Source of the DNA: Streptomyces sp. NBC_01314
GTDB lineage: Bacteria; Actinomycetota; Actinomycetes; Streptomycetales; Streptomycetaceae
Assembly: GCF_041435215.1 (NCBI RefSeq)
Contig: NZ_CP108394.1
Location: 682,001-746,000 of the forward strand
Length of the DNA: 64,000 nucleotides
Direction: 5' to 3'
Translations under genes and position numbers: made by a program
Notes under the pieces: generated by a model
The model's database searches: none
What the model was told of the DNA's origin: nothing
The model's input: only the letters and a program-made list of their open reading frames with translations
Shown: piece after piece, positions 4,123 to 47,057 of the stretch
How the letters are laid out: each line of letters begins with the position of its first letter
Position numbering within the stretch: position 1 is the first letter of the stretch

Positions 4123-4530
4123 ATGATGGCCACCCGGAAAGCCGCTCCTCGCGCTGTCTCGGTCTACGTGCTCGCCGGAATCCGGCTCTTCAACGGGGCC
4201 GCCGGACTGCTCACACCCGAACTGCTCATCCGGCGCCTCGACCCCGATCGTGAGCCGCCCAGTCCGGCGGCCGTGTACGCCTTCCGGCTCTTCGGGGTCC
4301 GTACGATCCTGCTCGGCCTCGATCTGCTGACCAACCGCGACGAGCGGTTGCGGGAGTACCTGCGCGACGGCGTCCTGATCCACGGCAGTGACACCGCGAC
4401 AGCGGCCACGCTGGGCCTGAGCGGCCGGCTTCCACCGCGCACCGCGGCGCTGACCACGCTCATCTCGGCCGCCAACACGGTCCTGGCCGCCGCCTCGCTC
4501 GCCAACCCGATGAAGGGGAAGCGGAAGTGA
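4123..4530 (+). CDS. small membrane protein, first gene of the GMC/peroxidase operon
   Basis: Two ATG codons abut (4123 and 4126). The GGAG at 4117-4120 lies two bases from the first and five from the second, so the second is the likelier start. About 135 residues with three or four hydrophobic segments (YVLAGIRLFNGAAGLL, FRLFGVRTILLGLDLL, TLGLSG and the C-terminal ALTTLISAANTVLAAASLA). The pattern resembles the small DUF4267-type membrane proteins, though I am not certain. It overlaps the next gene by four bases (GTGA), so it is translated with the GMC oxidoreductase and may anchor or chaperone it. Confidence 0.75.
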   Translation: MMATRKAAPRAVSVYVLAGIRLFNGAAGLLTPELLIRRLDPDREPPSPAAVYAFRLFGVRTILLGLDLLTNRDERLREYLRDGVLIHGSDTATAATLGLSGRLPPRTAALTTLISAANTVLAAASLANPMKGKRK

Positions 4531-6452
4531 CGGGTGAGCCCGGTGCCGTTTCCCCGGCCGAGACGGGTTTCGACTACGTCGTCGTCGGCGCCGGGGCGGG
4601 AGGCGGACCGTTGGCGGCCAACCTCGCCGCCGCGGGCATGCGTACCCTGCTGCTCGACGCGGGTGGTGCCCCGGAGAACGACAACTACCTGGTGCCCGCC
4701 TTCCACGCGGACGCCTCCGAGGACCCCGTCCAGTGCTGGAACTACTTCGTGGAGCACTACGCCGACGAGCGGCAGCAACAGCGCGACAGCAAACTCGTCC
4801 CGGGCCGGGGCATCCTCTACCCGCGTGCCGGGACGGTCGGCGGCTGCACCGCGCACCATGCGCTGATCACCGTCTATCCGTACAACCGCGACTGGGACGC
4901 GATCGCGGAGGAGACCGGCGACGCGACGTGGCACAGCACGGCCATGCGCCGGTACTTCGAACGGCTGGAACGCTGCACCTACCGGCCGAGGCCCAAGGAG
5001 CCGCCCGCCAACCCGCTGCTGGCCACGCTGCTTGCCGCGCTGCTGAAGGTCCTGCCCTTCACAGGCGCCCGGTACCGCAACGACGCACGCCACGGCTTCG
5101 ACGGCTGGCTGCCGACCGCCCTCGCCGACCCCGAACTGGTCGTCGAGGACAAGCAGTTGCTGAAGGTCATCCTCTCGGCCGCGGAGGACACCCTGGCCGA
5201 CCTCCTCGACCGGCCGCTGTCCCCGCTGGAGGGGTTCGGCTCCTTCGTCGACCCCAACGACTGGCGGGCGCAGACACGTGCCCTGCAGGGGCTGTGGCAG
5301 ATCCCCCTCTCCACGGCGAACGGCCGGCGCAGTGCCGTACGCGAGCGAGTCCAGGCCGTACAGCGAAGCCATCCGGGCAACCTGGTGGTCCGTACGAACG
5401 CCCTGGCGGCCCGGGTCGTGCTGGACCGGAACGGAGCCGCGGCCGGCATCGACTATCTGGACGGGGCGCACGCCTACCGGGCCGCCCCCGCGAGCCGGCC
5501 GGACGCCGGGCCGCCGGGCCTGCGCAGGGTCCTGGCCTCCCGCGAGGTGATCCTGGCCGCGGGCGCCTTCAACACACCCCAGTTGCTGATGCTTTCGGGC
5601 ATCGGACCGCGTGCGGAGCTGCAGCGGCACGGCATACCCGTACGGGTCGACCTCCAGGGCGTGGGCGCGAATCTGCAGGACCGGTACGAGGTCGGCGTGG
5701 TCAGCCAGATGGACCGCGAGTTCCCGGTGCTCAAGGACTGCGACTTCCACGCGCCGCGGTCCGGGACCGAACCGGACCGCTGTTACCGGGCCTGGCGGCG
5801 CGGCGAAGGTCTGTACACGACCAACGGCGCCGTCGTCGGTGTCACCCGCAAGTCCCGTCCGGAGCTGGACGCACCCGACCTGTTCATCTTCGGCGGCCCC
5901 TTCGACTTCCGGGGCTACCACCCCGGCTACTCGCTCGACCTGACCCGCCATCGGGACCGTTTCACCTGGGCGATCCTCAAGAGCCGCACCCAGAACACCG
6001 GGGGTCGGGTGCGGCTTCGCTCCACCGACCCCCGTGACACCCCACTGGTGAACTTCCACTACTTCGGCGAGGGCACGGACAAGGACGCCGTGGATCTCGA
6101 AGCCATGGCCGGTGCCGTCGAGTTCGTGCGCGGGATGAACCGCAAAGCCGGCTCCGTGATCCTCAAGGAGTTGTGGCCCGGCGAGGAGGTCGACGGCCTC
6201 GACGACGTCCGCCGTTTCGTGCAGGACGAGGCCTGGGGCCACCACGCGTCGTGCACTTGCAGGATGGGACGAACGGACGATCCCTCTGCGGTCGTCGACA
6301 GCAGGTTCCGGGTGCGGGGAGTGGACCGCCTGCGGATCGTCGACGCCTCGGTCTTCCCCCGCATTCCCGGATTCTTCGTCGCCACCCCCATCTACATGAT
6401 CAGCGAGAAGGCGAGCGACGTGATCCTCGCGACCACCCAAGGAGAACCGTGA
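4527..6452 (+). CDS. GMC-family FAD-dependent oxidoreductase
   Basis: 641 residues with the glucose-methanol-choline oxidoreductase architecture: N-terminal FAD-binding Rossmann motif (VVVGAGAGGGPLAANLAAAG, residues ~15-34), GMC signature 1 region (GRGILYPRAGTVGGCTAHH), signature 2 (AGAFNTPQLLMLSGIG), and a C-terminal WGHHASCTCRMG followed by a conserved VDASVFPRIPG. Members oxidise alcohols or sterols to aldehydes/ketones with FAD. The second catalytic position, usually His/Asn in an N-x-P/T context after the C-terminal PG, reads GFFVATP here, so activity may differ. GTGA overlap with the upstream gene; its TGA overlaps the next ATG by one base. Confidence 0.9.
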   Translation: MTGEPGAVSPAETGFDYVVVGAGAGGGPLAANLAAAGMRTLLLDAGGAPENDNYLVPAFHADASEDPVQCWNYFVEHYADERQQQRDSKLVPGRGILYPRAGTVGGCTAHHALITVYPYNRDWDAIAEETGDATWHSTAMRRYFERLERCTYRPRPKEPPANPLLATLLAALLKVLPFTGARYRNDARHGFDGWLPTALADPELVVEDKQLLKVILSAAEDTLADLLDRPLSPLEGFGSFVDPNDWRAQTRALQGLWQIPLSTANGRRSAVRERVQAVQRSHPGNLVVRTNALAARVVLDRNGAAAGIDYLDGAHAYRAAPASRPDAGPPGLRRVLASREVILAAGAFNTPQLLMLSGIGPRAELQRHGIPVRVDLQGVGANLQDRYEVGVVSQMDREFPVLKDCDFHAPRSGTEPDRCYRAWRRGEGLYTTNGAVVGVTRKSRPELDAPDLFIFGGPFDFRGYHPGYSLDLTRHRDRFTWAILKSRTQNTGGRVRLRSTDPRDTPLVNFHYFGEGTDKDAVDLEAMAGAVEFVRGMNRKAGSVILKELWPGEEVDGLDDVRRFVQDEAWGHHASCTCRMGRTDDPSAVVDSRFRVRGVDRLRIVDASVFPRIPGFFVATPIYMISEKASDVILATTQGEP

Positions 6453-8305
6453 TGAGCAAGCAGCGACGCACCGCACGCCGCTCCGCGGCCGGACACCGAA
6501 CGTCACTGCCATGGCGGGTCGTCACCGCCGGCGCCGAATTCGTGGACCGGCGCCTCGGCTGGGACAAACTGCCCGTCATACCGGGTCTGCTGACGCTCCT
6601 CGGACTGCGCGTCAAACTCCGGCAGAAGAACCTCCACGACACCGGCCGTCTGCCCTCGGCCAACCTGCCCGATCCCGCGCCGCCCTCCGAGACCCACAAG
6701 GTCAACCGGACCGCCGACGGCAGCCACAACGACCTCGACGAGCCGCGCATGGGCATGGCGGGCACCCGCTTCGGCCGGAACATCCCGCTGGACCGGATCG
6801 CCCCGGCCACACCCGAGGACGTACTGTCCGCGCCGAGCCCGCGCGAGGTCAGCCGCGCCCTGCTCACCCGCGACGAGCTCACCCCCGCCGAATCGGTCAA
6901 CTCCCTGGTCGCCGCCTGGCTTCAGTTCATGGTCCGCGACTGGTTCAGCCACGGGAGCAGCCCCACGGAACGGCCCTGGGAAGTACCCCTCATGGACGAC
7001 GACCCATGGCCGGAACACCCCATGCGGATCATGCGGACCCCGGACGACCCGACCCGCGACCCGCAGGCACCCGCGGGAACGCCCGACACCCGCGTCAACG
7101 TGTCCTCCCACTGGTGGGACGCCTCGCAGATCTACGGGACGAACGAGACCGAGCAGCGTCTGATGCGCACCGGTGAGCTGGGCAAGCTGCATGTGTGGGA
7201 CGACGAGCAGTCCCCGATCCCCTCGGACCCCTCCCGGGATCCCTCGCACATCCCCGGTTTCTGGCTGGGCCTGGCCATGATGCACGACCTGTTCGTCCGT
7301 GAGCACAACGCGATCTGCGACCACCTGCACGGCGCCTACCCGTCCTGGAACGACGAGGAACTCTTCCAGCGGGCCCGGCTCGTCAACGCCGCGCTCCTCG
7401 CCAAGATCCACACCGTGGAGTGGACACCGGCCGTGATCAGCCACCCCACCACCGTCAAGGCACTGCGCGCCAACTGGTGGGGCGTCGCGGGCGAGCGTGT
7501 CCACAACCTCTTCGGCCGGATCAGCGACAGCGAGGTCGTCAGCGGCATCCCCGGCGCCGAAACGGACCACTACGGCGTCCCGTACTCCCTCACCGAGGAG
7601 TTCGTCGCTGTCTACCGCATGCACCCGCTCATCCGAGACGAGTGGCATCTGCGCTCGGCCGCCGACGACACGAGCCTGCGCCACTGCACCCTCCGCGACA
7701 TCTCGGGGCCCGGGGCGCTGAAGGTCCTGGAGACCACCGAGATGACCGACCTGCTCTACAGCTTCGGCACGCTCCACCCCGGACTGGTCACCATGCACAA
7801 CTTCCCCAGGTTCCTTCAGGAGTTCGAGCGCCCCGACGGACAACTGCAGGACCTCGCCGCCACCGACATCCTGCGCTCCCGGGAGCTGGGCGTCCCCCGC
7901 TACAACGAGTTCCGCCGACTGCTGCGGCTGAGGCCCGCCGCGGACTTCCTGGAACTGACCGAGAACCGGGCATGGGCCGAGCAGATCCAGGAGCTCTACG
8001 ACGGCGACATCGAGAAGGTCGACCTCATGGTCGGGCTGTACGCGGAGAAACTGCCGACCGGATTCGCCTTCAGCGACACGGCGTTCCGCATCTTCATCCT
8101 GATGGCCTCACGCCGGCTGAACAGCGACCGCTTCTTCACCGAGTACTACACCCCCGAGGTGTACTCCAAGGCCGGTATGGCCTGGATCGACGACAACTCC
8201 ATGATCACGGTGCTGCTGCGCCACCACCCGGAGCTGCGTACGGCTCTGACGGGGCTGACGAACGCCTTCGTGCCGTGGAACACAGCCGGAAGGACGGTGA
8301 CTTGA
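6452..8305 (+). CDS. animal-type haem peroxidase (cyclooxygenase/dioxygenase-like)
   Basis: ATG at 6452 shares its A with the preceding TGA, with AAGGAGAACC just upstream. The 617-residue protein belongs to the peroxidase-cyclooxygenase superfamily (An_peroxidase). Visible landmarks are SSHWWDASQIYG (distal region), LAMMHDLFVREHNAIC, and VYRMHPLIRDEW, which carries the expected proximal haem-ligand histidine, plus a late LYSFGTLHPGLVTMHNFP. Prokaryotic relatives oxygenate fatty acids or perform peroxidation. No signal peptide is obvious, although the N-terminus is basic (KQRRTARRS). It sits between a GMC oxidoreductase and a protease-hydrolase in one transcription unit; a role in lipid (oxylipin) oxidation is inference. 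Confidence 0.88.
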   Translation: MSKQRRTARRSAAGHRTSLPWRVVTAGAEFVDRRLGWDKLPVIPGLLTLLGLRVKLRQKNLHDTGRLPSANLPDPAPPSETHKVNRTADGSHNDLDEPRMGMAGTRFGRNIPLDRIAPATPEDVLSAPSPREVSRALLTRDELTPAESVNSLVAAWLQFMVRDWFSHGSSPTERPWEVPLMDDDPWPEHPMRIMRTPDDPTRDPQAPAGTPDTRVNVSSHWWDASQIYGTNETEQRLMRTGELGKLHVWDDEQSPIPSDPSRDPSHIPGFWLGLAMMHDLFVREHNAICDHLHGAYPSWNDEELFQRARLVNAALLAKIHTVEWTPAVISHPTTVKALRANWWGVAGERVHNLFGRISDSEVVSGIPGAETDHYGVPYSLTEEFVAVYRMHPLIRDEWHLRSAADDTSLRHCTLRDISGPGALKVLETTEMTDLLYSFGTLHPGLVTMHNFPRFLQEFERPDGQLQDLAATDILRSRELGVPRYNEFRRLLRLRPAADFLELTENRAWAEQIQELYDGDIEKVDLMVGLYAEKLPTGFAFSDTAFRIFILMASRRLNSDRFFTEYYTPEVYSKAGMAWIDDNSMITVLLRHHPELRTALTGLTNAFVPWNTAGRTVT

Positions 8306-8306
8306 C

Positions 8307-10340
8307 ATGGTAGCGACGGACAGGTCCCACGACGAACGGGAGCGCCAGGTCGCGGCGGCCGCCGCACGGTACGGAGAGACAGGCGACGAGCGACGGACCC
8401 TCCAGCGGCAGCAGGACGCCGGGGTGGCCTTCCCGGACTCGGAGGAGGCACTCGCGGCGCGCGCGGCCCGGCTGCTCGACCGGCAGGCGGTGCCCGCCGC
8501 CATGGTGGTGGAGGCCGTCCGCGCGGACCCGCTGGAGGCAACCGCCGCGTACGAACGCATCCTCGGGGTGTCCAGGGACCTGCAGGCCTGGAGCTTCCTG
8601 CCGCGCGGCGCCCGGGCGGCCCGTACCATCGCCCGGATCTCGGTGCGGGAGAACGGCCGTGAGCTGCCCGTCGGCACCGGCTTCCTGGTGTCGCCGAACC
8701 TGCTGCTGACCAACCATCACGTGCTCCCCGACACGGAGGCCGCCCGGCAGAGCTTCGTGGAGTTCGACGCCCAGGTCACCGTCGACAACACACCCCAGTC
8801 GCCGACGCGGCTGGAGCTCGACCCGGACGGGTTCTTCGCGGCGGACCAACGCCTCGACTTCGCCCTGGTGCGGGTCGCCCCCGGCCCGGACCTGCGGCCC
8901 GCTGGGGAGACGTTCGGCTGGAACCGGCTCAGCGCCCAGAAGGGAAAGCTGGTCATCGGCGAGCCGGTCAACGTCATCGGCCATCCGATGGGGCGGCTGA
9001 AGGAGATCGCCGTACGCGACAACATGCTCCAGGTGCGCCTCGACGACTTCCTCCACTACAAGACGGACACCGAGCCCGGCAATTCGGGCTCTCCCGTCTT
9101 CAACGACCAGTGGGAGGTCGTCGCGCTCCACCACAGCGGTGTCCCCAGGACCGACGGACAGGGACGCGTCCTGCGCCGTGACGGGCAGGTCTGGCAGCCC
9201 GGTGACGGCGACGACGCAATCGACTGGGTGTCCAACGAGGGCGTACGCATCAGCTCCATTCTGAAGCACCTCGCCGCCCTGCCCCTCTCCTCCCGTCAGC
9301 AGGCGCTGCTGGCCGAGATGGGCCCGGAGTCGGGGCTGGGTGTCGCGGAGGCCGCCGCAGTTCCGGTGGCGGCTCCGGCTCCCGCCGCCGCGGCGTCGCC
9401 CACGGCCGTCGAGAACGTCACCGCGCGGGCGGGCCTGCGTGCCCGGGACGGCGCGTTCGGCGGCAGACGGCATCTGGTCTTCCTGCACGGTCGCTCCCAG
9501 GAAGGCCTGGTGCCCGAGGACCTGCGCCGCGACTGGACGGCCGGACTCAACCAGGGGCTCGTCCGCGCCGGTCTCCCTCCGGTCGACCCGGCGGACGTCT
9601 GGTTCCCCTACTACGGCGACAGACTGGTGCAGGCCCTGACCGCGCATGAGGCCGTCCCCCACCTGGTCGAGGCGCCGACCGCCAGGGCGGCGGAGGCTGT
9701 CGCACCGACCGCCCCCACCGCACGCGCGGTGTACGAGGAGATCATCGGCGAGGCGGCCACGAAGTGGGACATGCCGCACGAGAGCCGACTGGCCACCGAA
9801 CGGATCGGCATGGGTGACGTGGTCGGAGCCCTGCAGAAGCGGCTGAGCTGGCTGGCCGCCAGGAGCGACCTCGACGCGTGGGCGATCGCCCTGGTCTTCC
9901 GTGACGTGGCCGCGTACCTCGACGACCAGCGCATCCGGGACGAGGTCCTGGGCTGCGTACTGGAGACGATGCCGGACTCGGGAGAAGTGGTGCTCGTCAG
10001 TCACAGCCTCGGCACGGTCGTCGGCCTGGATCTCACCACACGGCTGTCCCCCGGGGTGGATCTCGTCCATCTGACCACGGCGGGCAGTCCCCTCGGCCTG
10101 GACAGCGTGTACAGCAGGCTGCTCGTCGGCGGGCCGAAGCGTCCGGACGTCGTGGCCGACTGGCTCAACGTCTGGTGCCCGACCGACGCGGTGGCCATCG
10201 GATGCCCCTTGGGCGACGACTGGGCGGACGGGCTGTCCGACCTCGCCGTCGTCAACGCCCGCGACCGTGCGCACAAAATCGTCGAGTACCTCGCCCACCC
10301 CGACGTCGCCCGGTCGATCGGCAGCCACCTCGGCGGCTGA
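8307..10340 (+). CDS. trypsin-like serine protease fused to an alpha/beta hydrolase
   Basis: 677 residues. ATG lies one base after the peroxidase stop, with GGAAGGA about 12 bases upstream. Residues ~1-95 are helical and charged. Residues ~110-290 form a trypsin-like domain with all three catalytic residues in context: His in LLLTNHHVLP, Asp in RLDFALVRV, Ser in EPGNSGSPVF. An Ala/Pro linker follows, then an alpha/beta-hydrolase domain from residue ~385 (LVFLHGRSQEGL) with the nucleophile elbow SHSLGTVVG and a late DAVAIGCPLGDDW/ARDRAHK segment that may hold the remaining triad residues. No signal peptide, so it is probably cytoplasmic. This fusion occurs in bacterial conflict or stress contexts, but its job here is unknown. 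Confidence 0.88.
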   Translation: MVATDRSHDERERQVAAAAARYGETGDERRTLQRQQDAGVAFPDSEEALAARAARLLDRQAVPAAMVVEAVRADPLEATAAYERILGVSRDLQAWSFLPRGARAARTIARISVRENGRELPVGTGFLVSPNLLLTNHHVLPDTEAARQSFVEFDAQVTVDNTPQSPTRLELDPDGFFAADQRLDFALVRVAPGPDLRPAGETFGWNRLSAQKGKLVIGEPVNVIGHPMGRLKEIAVRDNMLQVRLDDFLHYKTDTEPGNSGSPVFNDQWEVVALHHSGVPRTDGQGRVLRRDGQVWQPGDGDDAIDWVSNEGVRISSILKHLAALPLSSRQQALLAEMGPESGLGVAEAAAVPVAAPAPAAAASPTAVENVTARAGLRARDGAFGGRRHLVFLHGRSQEGLVPEDLRRDWTAGLNQGLVRAGLPPVDPADVWFPYYGDRLVQALTAHEAVPHLVEAPTARAAEAVAPTAPTARAVYEEIIGEAATKWDMPHESRLATERIGMGDVVGALQKRLSWLAARSDLDAWAIALVFRDVAAYLDDQRIRDEVLGCVLETMPDSGEVVLVSHSLGTVVGLDLTTRLSPGVDLVHLTTAGSPLGLDSVYSRLLVGGPKRPDVVADWLNVWCPTDAVAIGCPLGDDWADGLSDLAVVNARDRAHKIVEYLAHPDVARSIGSHLGG

Positions 10341-10919
10341 GCCTGCCGTTCCGTCACCGATGCCGACCGGTGTCGCTGGTGCTCACGCTGGCCCGTCATT
10401 CGGCGGGACGACCCGCCGAGCTTGACGGTCGGTCAGCGATCGAGCGGTGATCCTGCGCTCGTGATCATTACGCCGACCGGCAGGACGCCGACCGGCAGGA
10501 CGTCGGGGCCGCGCGCGGTGACCATGGAGACTGCCGCCGCCGAAGGGTGGACAGCTGGGGTCCGACCTTGAAGCTGAAGTCACCGTGCTCGGTGTCGTAG
10601 TCGTCCTCGCTGAATCGGTGGACGACCTTGCCAGCATGGCCATTGCCCTGCGCCCCCTCCTGCGGCGGCAGGGCAACCTTCGGACAGAGCAAGGCGCTCG
10701 GGATCACTTGAAATCACGCGTACGCTCCCGGCGCTTCAGGTCCTCCCATACGACCGTCCCCGCATGTGGGGCTTCCCACCGACCGGCCGAGCCATCGGAC
10801 CCAATCGGAGGAGCGGCCCCCACCCGATCAGCCACCGTCCGCGCGCCCCGCCGTCCCGCGTGCGAGTAGGCCCTCTCCGGAGGTCGGGATAGGGTCAGTC
10901 AGGTGGGAGGTACGGGGGA
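10341..10919. other. intergenic gap, no convincing gene
   Basis: 579 bases. It holds the stem-loop at 10400-10419 and a short direct repeat (CCGACCGGCAGGACG twice, about 10474-10502). A 79-codon minus-strand frame (10468-10707) contains FSEDDYDTEHGDFSFKVG, which reads like a protein N-terminus but degenerates into Arg/Ser-rich sequence; it may be a decayed gene. I cannot assign it. Confidence 0.4.
10400..10419. terminator. stem-loop after the four-gene operon
   Basis: TCGGCGGG-ACGA-CCCGCCGA is a perfect 8-bp stem with a 4-base loop, 60 bases past the stop of the protease-hydrolase gene. No T-run follows, as is common in Streptomyces. It probably ends the 4123-10340 operon. Confidence 0.55.
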
Positions 10920-41967: not shown

Positions 41968-42448
41968 CACGACTCCATCCCTTGGGTTCCACATCTGTCG
42001 GCCACATTCGATCACGAGGTCCGCAACCAGGACCCAGGCGCAGAGCAGCACTTGTTCGTCTCGGGCGATACGAGGGGGTCGACGAGGCATACGGAGCGGC
42101 CATGCACTGTGGCCGCGCATGTGCCTGCCGCACGCCGCGGCTCGGCAACTGGCGGACGGCGGGAAGACGGTCCGTGTTCGGTGGTCGAGGACGACGGATG
42201 GCTGCAGTTCGTCCGGGACGGCGTACGAGCCGCCGTGGACGCCGGCCTGATCCGCGAGTCGGACGACATCGACTTCGTGGCCCAGAGGGCTTGCGTCGGC
42301 GCCGTCGCGCCGACCTGGCCGGCGGGCTCCCCGACTGCCCGGAGATCTCCCACTGACCGCCGGCCGCGCCGATAGCCTGGGCTCGCACCATGGCTTGGGG
42401 GCACCCCGGGCCTGTGCCCAAGCCGTTCGACGAAGGGAGCGTCCCGCT
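41968..42448. other. gap with a probable regulator remnant
   Basis: 481 bases between divergent genes. It contains the TetR-like debris described at 42180-42355. The last 60 bases should hold the acetyltransferase promoter; GAAGGGAG before its TTG is the only clear signal. Confidence 0.45.
42180..42355 (+). pseudogene. possible TetR-family regulator C-terminal remnant
   Basis: The plus strand reads GWLQFVRDGVRAAVDAGLIR then ESDDIDFVAQRACVGAV, resembling the last helices of TetR ligand-binding domains. Continuation into DLAGGLPDCPEISH-stop needs a frame change, and no helix-turn-helix is found upstream. Tentative. Confidence 0.35.
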
Positions 42449-45804: not shown

Positions 45805-46131
45805 ATGGCACGACCTTCCCGTTACCCGCTTGAGCTCCGCCGCCGTGCGGTGCGCATGGTCGCCGAGGTGCGCGACGACTACCCCAACGAGACGGCCGCT
45901 CTGCAGGCGGTCACGGACAAGCTCGGCATCGGCTCCCGGGAGACGCTGCGGAACTGGCTGAAGCAGCACGAGATCGATGCGGGGGTGCGTCCGGGGGCGA
46001 CAACGGAGGAATCTGCCCAGCTCAGAGCGTTGAAGAAGGAGAACGCCGAGCTGAAGCGGGCGAACGAAATCCTGAAGGCGGCGGCGAGTTTCTTCGCGGC
46101 CGAGCTCGACCGGCCACACACACGCTCGTAG
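45805..46131 (+). CDS. IS3 transposase OrfA
   Basis: 108 residues. A helix-turn-helix (YPLELRRRAVRMVAEVRDDY, ALQAVTDKLGIGSRETLRNW) is followed by a leucine-zipper-like coil (QLRALKKENAELKRANEIL), the normal OrfA layout. It binds the element ends and is fused to OrfB by a -1 frameshift near its 3' end. ATG 45805 is preceded by GAAAGGATCGAGTC. Confidence 0.95.
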   Translation: MARPSRYPLELRRRAVRMVAEVRDDYPNETAALQAVTDKLGIGSRETLRNWLKQHEIDAGVRPGATTEESAQLRALKKENAELKRANEILKAAASFFAAELDRPHTRS

Positions 46132-47057
46132 CGTTCATCGACGAGCACCGGGACCGCTTCGGCGGCGTCGAGCCGATCTGCAGAACCCTCACCGGGCACG
46201 ACTGCAAGATCACCCCTTCTACCTACTACGCCCAGAAGAAACGCCTGGCCGTCCCGTCCACCCGTTTCGTGCGGGACGCCGAACTCAGGGAACTGATCCG
46301 CCAGGTCCACACCACCAACTACCGCGTCTACGGGGCAAGGAAGATCTGGCGGGAGCTGAACCGGCAGGGACATGCAGTGGCCCGCTGCACCGTCGAACGG
46401 CTGATGCGCGAGATGGGCATCAGCGGCGCCGTCCGCGGCAAGAGGGTCATCACCACGATCCCGGACCAGCAGGCCGATCGGGCACCGGACCGAGTGGACC
46501 GTGACTTCGTCGCCGCCGCACCGAACCGCTGCTGGGTCGCGGATTTCACGCACGTGGCGACCTGGGCCGGCGTCGTCTACGTCGCCTTCGTCGTGGACAC
46601 CTTCTCCCGCCGGATCGTCGGCTGGTCCGCCGCGACGTCGAAGGAGACCCAGCTGGTCCTGGACGCTCTGGAGATGGCACTGTGGCAACGCAACCGCGAT
46701 GAACGCCCCCATGTTCGGGGCGAGTTGATACATCACAGCGACGCGGGCAGCCAGTACACCAGTTTCAAGCTGGCCGAACACCTGGATGCGGCCGGCATCG
46801 CCGCCTCGATCGGCTCTGTCGGCGACGCATACGACAACGCCCTGATGGAGAGCACGATCGGCCTGTTCAAAACCGAGTTGATCAAGCCTCAACGGCCCTG
46901 GAAGACCCTCTCCGAGGTCGAGTTGGCCACCGCCGAGTGGATCGACTGGTACTGCCACCGGCGCCTGCACGGTGAGATAGGCCACGTGCCACCCGTCGAG
47001 TACGAGACCAACTACTACACGGAACTCACAAAACCCCAGGTCACAACCACAATCTGA
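46125..47057 (+). CDS. IS3 transposase OrfB (made by -1 frameshift)
   Basis: The frame is -1 relative to OrfA and is open upstream of 46125; LVAFIDEHRDRFGGVEPICR is where family sequence resumes. HTH_21 region YRVYGARKIWRELNRQGHAV precedes an rve DDE integrase domain with Asp in CWVADFTHVA, Asp in LIHHSDAGSQY and Glu in ALMESTIGLFKTEL. I see no canonical slippery heptamer; an ACACACAC run at about 46116-46123 lies at the crossover. About 310 residues after the shift. Confidence 0.92.
   Translation, partial: LVAFIDEHRDRFGGVEPICRTLTGHDCKITPSTYYAQKKRLAVPSTRFVRDAELRELIRQVHTTNYRVYGARKIWRELNRQGHAVARCTVERLMREMGISGAVRGKRVITTIPDQQADRAPDRVDRDFVAAAPNRCWVADFTHVATWAGVVYVAFVVDTFSRRIVGWSAATSKETQLVLDALEMALWQRNRDERPHVRGELIHHSDAGSQYTSFKLAEHLDAAGIAASIGSVGDAYDNALMESTIGLFKTELIKPQRPWKTLSEVELATAEWIDWYCHRRLHGEIGHVPPVEYETNYYTELTKPQVTTTI

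Follow-up and report, generated by a model that had tools for sequence, protein, structure and literature searches.

An α-dioxygenase homologue encoded with a GMC oxidoreductase, a small membrane protein and a protease-hydrolase fusion in Streptomyces sp. NBC_01314

The closest described relatives of the system reported here are the plant α-dioxygenases (α-DOXs) OsaDOX and AthDOX and the cyanobacterial CalDOX, an assayed α-DOX that converts fatty acids to aldehydes and is active on C10–C14 (PMC8720084). In the accessible part of that paper, two cyanobacterial enzymes are assayed and the bacterial members are otherwise presented as a tree; the catalytic Tyr and the proximal His are conserved across the family, and only some members keep the distal haem His, which therefore does not define it. 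The terms GMC, operon, patatin, plasmid and neighbor are all absent from the same part. Here, we describe a four-gene operon within a 64,000-nucleotide stretch of Streptomyces sp. NBC_01314 (11.3-Mb contig NZ_CP108394.1, positions 682,001–746,000; the window), in which an α-DOX homologue is encoded together with a DUF4267-like small membrane protein, a GMC flavin adenine dinucleotide (FAD) oxidoreductase and a protease-hydrolase fusion. With somewhat better than even confidence, we read this operon as a membrane-associated fatty-acid α-oxidation cassette; it probably encodes a lipid-oxidation pathway that has not been described before. Among the open-licence papers listed by our searches, no title or abstract opening described an α-DOX operon with GMC or patatin genes, a bacterial catalase/α-DOX fusion, this operon setting or the distal-Arg clade reported below, and these searches gave no account of a biological role for bacterial α-DOX. 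The kind of enzyme is already known.

An α-dioxygenase homologue in a four-gene operon

The third gene product is an α-dioxygenase homologue, predicted to carry out fatty-acid α-oxygenation. Pfam places it in the An_peroxidase family (5.7e-106). Among the solved structures searched, plant α-DOX matches residues 27–611 with E 4.2e-107, compared with 3.5e-23 for lactoperoxidase and 2.2e-16 for cyclooxygenase; identity as a cyclooxygenase (PGHS) or a lactoperoxidase-type peroxidase was rejected on score, plant α-DOX being far ahead. The initial annotation as a cyclooxygenase-like peroxidase is thereby refined: the protein groups with α-dioxygenases and not with cyclooxygenases. Nine of ten tested α-DOX active-site positions are kept (Gln158, His320, Trp324, Thr325, Phe384, Tyr388, His391, Phe548 and Arg555, window numbering). 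The catalytic Tyr379 and proximal His382 of the rice enzyme correspond to Tyr388 and His391, and the carboxylate and α-carbon residues His311, Thr316 and Arg559 to His320, Thr325 and Arg555. The window enzyme is homologous to OsaDOX, AthDOX and CalDOX over its full length and keeps their catalytic Tyr and proximal His, the His/Arg that bind the carboxylate, and the Thr and Phe positions; it differs in carrying Arg162 in place of the distal haem His and in its operon setting with DUF4267-like, GMC and protease-hydrolase genes. The earlier suggestion of a haem enzyme that would oxygenate lipids and be paired with a GMC protein is supported.

The window α-DOX is 49.6% identical, over 89% coverage, to a 584-residue protein encoded on a plasmid of Calothrix PCC 6303. 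Because all eight CalDOX residue numbers found in the accessible part of the published text (H131, H290, T295, F354, Y358, H361, F522 and R529) fit this protein, it is taken, on these residue numbers, to be CalDOX.

The four genes (Table 1) are tightly coupled. The small gene and the GMC gene share a GTGA overlap at 4527–4530, and the GMC and α-DOX genes a TGATG overlap at 6450–6454, with the α-DOX ATG at 6452; a longer open reading frame (ORF) covering α-DOX extends upstream into the GMC gene. A single base (8306) separates the α-DOX stop from the ATG of the fourth gene, and seven further loci show the same step (L004, L006, L007, L010, L014, L037 and L050), indicating that the arrangement is more than chance. 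These junctions bear out the four linked genes first proposed for this segment. Third-position G+C content is 0.87–0.92 across the four genes, with α-DOX called from an internal start for this measurement. The hairpin said to end the operon is present and real but modest (minimum free energy −59 kcal/mol, z −2.2); it lacks a T-run, and a terminator scan found no terminator-like site. An Rfam search gave no match.

Table 1. Operon features, in window coordinates
Feature	Position	Strand	Remarks
DUF4267-like membrane protein gene	4123-4530	+	135 residues; four long helices predicted
GMC FAD oxidoreductase gene, 'IPGFF' type	4527-6452	+	641 residues; GMC_oxred_N/C domains; His573, Phe617
α-Dioxygenase (α-DOX) homologue gene	6452-8305	+	617 residues; An_peroxidase domain
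Codon for distal Arg162 of α-DOX homologue	6935-6937	+	His in plant and Calothrix α-DOX
V8/trypsin-like protease and α/β hydrolase fusion gene, accessory	8307-10340	+	677 residues; Trypsin_2 domain
G+C-rich hairpin past last stop, without T-run	~10385-10435	+	Folding z-score, terminator scan

The distal haem residue

The distal haem position is His in the plant chains and CalDOX and Arg162 in the window enzyme, which falls outside the distal-His subgroup (rice His157 aligned with Arg162). Leaving out three duplicate loci, this position is Arg in 51, Lys in 2 and His in 1 of the loci with at least 60% identity (n=54), the sole His belonging to a broken copy (L039). Loci with 38–60% identity (n=30) comprise 29 His and a single Arg, the latter from a partial read (L055), and those below 38% (n=3) comprise 2 Pro and 1 His. 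A quick tree of 87 rows recovers the clade holding the window enzyme, again with 51 Arg, 2 Lys and 1 His, at a support of 100.

Arg or Lys marks the window's α-DOX clade (53/54 loci), yet the alignment does not suggest one clean switch. Among the window protein and the best 120 of 7,983 homologues, the residue is Arg in 105, His in 12 and Lys in 4. The position has changed more than once, because a tree of 119 of these 121 sequences requires five changes at it and His occurs in 12 of the 121.

Operon partners and their conservation

The small DUF4267-like protein and α-DOX form the wider unit, the small protein being the core partner of the α-DOX. The window protein itself matches no Pfam family at E 0.01; its DUF4267 (PF14087) score is 13 bits and that of a clade Ib relative (L053) 18.5 bits over nearly the whole domain, with a cut-off of 27.8, and certain relatives carry the source annotation DUF4267. 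A model with a mean predicted local distance difference test (pLDDT) score of 85, built from 25 sequences, all except one at least 66% alike to the first, has four long helices and one short helix, and a fold search with it returned nothing significant (best E 0.37). The small gene is present in 14 of the 199 Streptomyces genomes of our genus sample, and in 13 of these it lies at most ~2.1 kb upstream of α-DOX on the same strand (in one, G062, as a partial copy). A partner search over a 6-kb range, covering 93 α-DOX loci and 17 control loci, located a DUF4267-like gene at 34 α-DOX loci, with 31 Arg, 2 Lys and 1 His (the broken L039) at the distal position. Within the same range, the gene occurs at none of the 28 other distal-His loci and none of the 9 loci with an unscored residue, and 20 distal-Arg loci are without it. 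In clade Ib (60–66% identical), the small protein and α-DOX occur without GMC in eight of eight loci.

The GMC protein scores above the gathering score for both GMC_oxred_N and GMC_oxred_C and keeps the catalytic His573, features shared with choline dehydrogenase, MftG and fatty acid photodecarboxylase. Most GMC oxidases have His or Asn at the second catalytic position; in the window protein this position, assigned by hand from an alignment, is Phe617, a residue found in all 16 distinct readable orthologues, window included. The protein scores far below the NCBIfam cut-offs. Its similarity to fatty acid photodecarboxylase reaches E 9.5e-41; this identity was rejected, with Cys432 aligned to a gap and Arg451 to Leu, in a numbering fitted by an Arg-to-Ala difference between two chains. 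With no more than 6 candidates scored in each genome, 3 of the 199 Streptomyces genomes have an intact orthologue of the GMC gene (E up to 1e-150), each time between the small gene and α-DOX. Because a phylum-wide sample of 296 genomes (E up to 1e-90, at most 4 candidates scored per genome) yielded the window's copy alone, the spread of this GMC outside Streptomyces rests on plasmid records. The best match among 72,556 plasmid records is on the Calothrix plasmid bearing the CalDOX-like gene, where a GMC gene encoding a 49% identical protein lies ~2.5 kb downstream of that gene and overlaps a patatin-like phospholipase gene. A Rhizobium johnstonii relative (43–44% identical) adjoins a patatin gene and a RoxA-like cytochrome, with no α-DOX annotated within 6 kb, and three other rhizobial GMC neighbourhoods have no annotated patatin. 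At L147:1696-10676, a Rhizobium cluster combines GMC and patatin genes with one for a RoxA-like cytochrome c; Halomonas and Qingshengfaniella also have RoxA-like proteins beside α-DOX, and R. phaseoli has a related cytochrome there.

The fourth protein, an accessory gene product, combines a protease part (residues ~108–282) with an α/β hydrolase part (~375–677). The protease triad His138, Asp184 and Ser260, assigned by motif, is invariant in 30 of 30 homologues, as is the hydrolase triad Ser567, Asp627 and His656 in an α/β hydrolase fold. The C-terminal hydrolase has no Pfam match in the window protein and weak matches in its relatives (PGAP1 in 7/30, Lipase_3 in 3/30). The best 50 Foldseek rows for the fourth protein are proteases alone, and the hydrolase half emerged on a second look; in the predicted model this half aligns to lipases and DDHD domains, although parts of the fourth-protein model are of poor quality (mean pLDDT 63). 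The initial idea that a lipase-type hydrolase could supply the substrate is supported. The protease gene, whole or in part, lies directly downstream of α-DOX in 11 of the 43 close loci defined below, and in L015 it stands apart on the opposite strand. Relatives of the fusion occupy 18 places in 17 of the 199 Streptomyces genomes, 10 over both parts and 8 over the protease part alone. Three of these 17 genomes also hold a close α-DOX and one, the window's own, has the two linked; despite the 11 close loci, the protease therefore gains no support as an activation trigger. Related N-terminal and protease modules carry Endonuclease_1 in place of the α/β hydrolase (L113, L114 and L116–L120). The Trypsin-NucA 'System 3' of PMC7159879, as described in the accessible part of that paper, likewise fuses a trypsin-like protease to a second hydrolytic enzyme; the window protein differs in having an α/β hydrolase and no NucA, and its related fusions carry Endonuclease_1. 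At an acidobacterial locus, an Endonuclease_NS protein whose N-terminal half appears trypsin-like by eye (L046:7997-9922) is encoded upstream of α-DOX, with a metallophosphoesterase-like gene (weak match) downstream.

The gene set as a whole was followed through 43 close loci, comprising the window's clade from a search biased towards close relatives and from the genus sample, with duplicates L087 and L090 dropped. The α-DOX search matched 41 of the 199 Streptomyces genomes, 16 of them with a copy of at least 60% identity. All four genes are intact and in order in 5 of the 43 close loci, 16 loci keep complete small, GMC and α-DOX genes, and at 12 α-DOX stands without even a remnant of the other three in its vicinity; several other loci retain GMC or small-gene remnants. 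Synteny of the four genes, the check proposed in the initial annotation, thus holds in part. Given these counts and the 11 loci with the protease, the cassette is a variable one, and the four-gene set is one of the forms it takes.

In the partner search, a lipase-type hydrolase lies within 6 kb at 31 of 93 α-DOX loci and none of the 17 controls, a comparison in which the control set is small, the loci are related, some queries were drawn from the same loci, and 12 of the 31 positives are the trypsin-hydrolase itself. Clade Ib loci carry a Dyp gene (6/8), a catalase-like gene (6/8), a transmembrane patatin gene (5/8) and a DUF4267-like gene (8/8). Upstream of the Dyp gene, clade Ib operons also encode a family of ~420–590 residues (L095:4302-5582, L099:4936-6684), with no match in a Pfam scan of the L099 member. 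In clade II, a catalase-like domain is present at 13 of 13 loci, and a Pfam or PDB match confirms catalase and α-DOX as one protein for L103 and L143. Clade III loci carry a P450 gene (9/9) and genes for a hydrolase, an FAD-linked oxidase and a thiamine diphosphate (ThDP) decarboxylase (8/9 each), enzyme types that an α-oxidation route could use, making the operon (decarboxylase, FAD oxidase, P450, hydrolase and α-DOX) a candidate α-oxidation pathway. A P450 gene also lies directly downstream of α-DOX at the distant actinobacterial locus L162. This distribution suggests that α-DOX genes are frequently accompanied by genes for lipases, for a small membrane protein or for additional redox enzymes.

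The window's own genome encodes a second α-DOX of 998 residues with an N-terminal catalase-like domain (L103:8473-11469, ~2259473-2262469 of genome sequence C1), downstream of genes for glucose-6-phosphate dehydrogenase (G6PD), OpcA and 6-phosphogluconate dehydrogenase; Rhizobium phaseoli has a similar fusion. These proteins resemble the coral catalase-related/lipoxygenase fusions (PMC5617202) in joining a catalase-like domain to a second enzyme; they differ in that α-DOX replaces lipoxygenase, and the window operon is without a catalase-like gene. Of the annotated clade III operons (L121–L128, L142), several also encode a small WXG-like protein.

Proposed pathway and alternatives

For the α-oxidation cassette, we observe the gene order and coupling, the domain families, the conserved catalytic residues and co-conservation; the substrate, the GMC step, the membrane role and the regulation we infer. 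The lipase-type hydrolase, the C-terminal half of the fourth protein, would free a fatty acid from membrane or stored lipid, a role that patatins or other hydrolases may fill in other clades. At the membrane, where it would be kept together with the DUF4267-like protein, α-DOX would use a tyrosyl radical from its peroxide-activated haem to add O2 at the α carbon, giving a 2-hydroperoxy acid that could pass to a one-carbon-shorter aldehyde or a 2-hydroxy acid. Homology and co-conservation suggest these hydrolase and α-DOX roles. The GMC enzyme may then oxidise the α-DOX product, a guess among at least two; if its electrons go to O2, the resulting H2O2 could keep the haem enzyme active. The protease half would be accessory, perhaps processing its own hydrolase.

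Several observations weigh against the α-oxidation cassette. Replacement of the distal His by Arg means that activity may differ from that of CalDOX, and the GMC enzyme is without the usual second catalytic residue. In the phylum-wide sample α-DOX occurs in 11 of 296 genomes and the GMC in the window's own; α-DOX stands without the other three genes in the 12 close loci noted above, and 14 of the 17 genomes with a protease-hydrolase relative have no close α-DOX. The fourteenth genome with the small gene (L102) has it beside a broken GMC, with no α-DOX. No searched partner was found at four of four Bradyrhizobium loci or at four of five distant actinobacterial loci (L158–L161), and a transposase gene between the CalDOX-like and GMC genes of Calothrix weakens that link.

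A different division of labour, in which the main job of the GMC enzyme would be to make H2O2 from some alcohol, for use by the haem enzyme as a true peroxidase of an aromatic or halide substrate with no lipid oxygenation, appears unlikely. GMC oxidases commonly produce H2O2, Dyp peroxidases employ a distal Arg, such that Arg162 could favour other peroxide chemistry, and clade Ib has Dyp and catalase-like genes beside α-DOX; however, the tested fatty-acid-binding and radical residues are kept, which is hard to explain without a bound fatty acid, and GMC relatives adjoin patatin lipases in Calothrix and R. johnstonii. Aldehyde formation by CalDOX, reported in the accessible part of PMC8720084, and the similarity of the GMC to photodecarboxylase would also suit a small set of tailoring genes for a secondary metabolite, with a fatty aldehyde, an odd-chain acid or a hydrocarbon as the product. 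We regard this as quite improbable, with the photodecarboxylase Cys432 and Arg451 absent from the window GMC and no biosynthetic core gene among the part of the neighbours that was scanned.

We give still less credence to a conflict or stress system, in which the protease-hydrolase would be the effector and the product of the lipid-oxidising genes would damage membranes or serve as a signal. Conflict systems have been proposed for trypsin-NucA fusions (PMC7159879, accessible part), a related protease module accompanies Endonuclease_1 in seven loci, and the acidobacterial α-DOX adjoins the Endonuclease_NS protein with its trypsin-like half. Yet the protease-hydrolase is linked to α-DOX in 1 of 17 genomes, most α-DOX loci are without it, and PADLOC, applied to the four proteins and 10 neighbours, detected no defence system, the matches being to the trypsin region, NUDIX and TAP-hydrolase alone; the phage-defence island raised as a possibility for this DNA was thus not supported. 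A nucleoside triphosphate (NTP)-dependent conflict system was separately considered and rejected, the word peroxidase being absent from the accessible main text of PMC7159879.

As an extension of the α-oxidation cassette that we consider possible but rather unlikely, the distal-Arg/Lys clade would have lost the usual haem activation and would now depend on operon partners for oxidant and for hydroperoxide processing, with lipases feeding the route. These partners would be the DUF4267-like protein together with, in the window clade, the GMC oxidase or, in clade Ib, a Dyp peroxidase and a mini-catalase. If true, such dependence would represent a new modular bacterial oxylipin pathway. Many bacterial α-DOXs are linked at these loci with lipases, with a dedicated membrane protein or with redox enzymes that would process the product; the partner-linked loci and the distal-Arg clade make the role and haem mechanism directly testable.

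Elsewhere in the window, a tRNA-Cys gene at 42174-42243 falls within a stretch read as an ORF by a composition-based caller. By eye, two ORFs at 45850-47057 resemble an IS3-type transposase pair, and the segment 58632-63998 contains an AIR-synthase-family gene whose neighbours resemble hydrogenase maturation genes.

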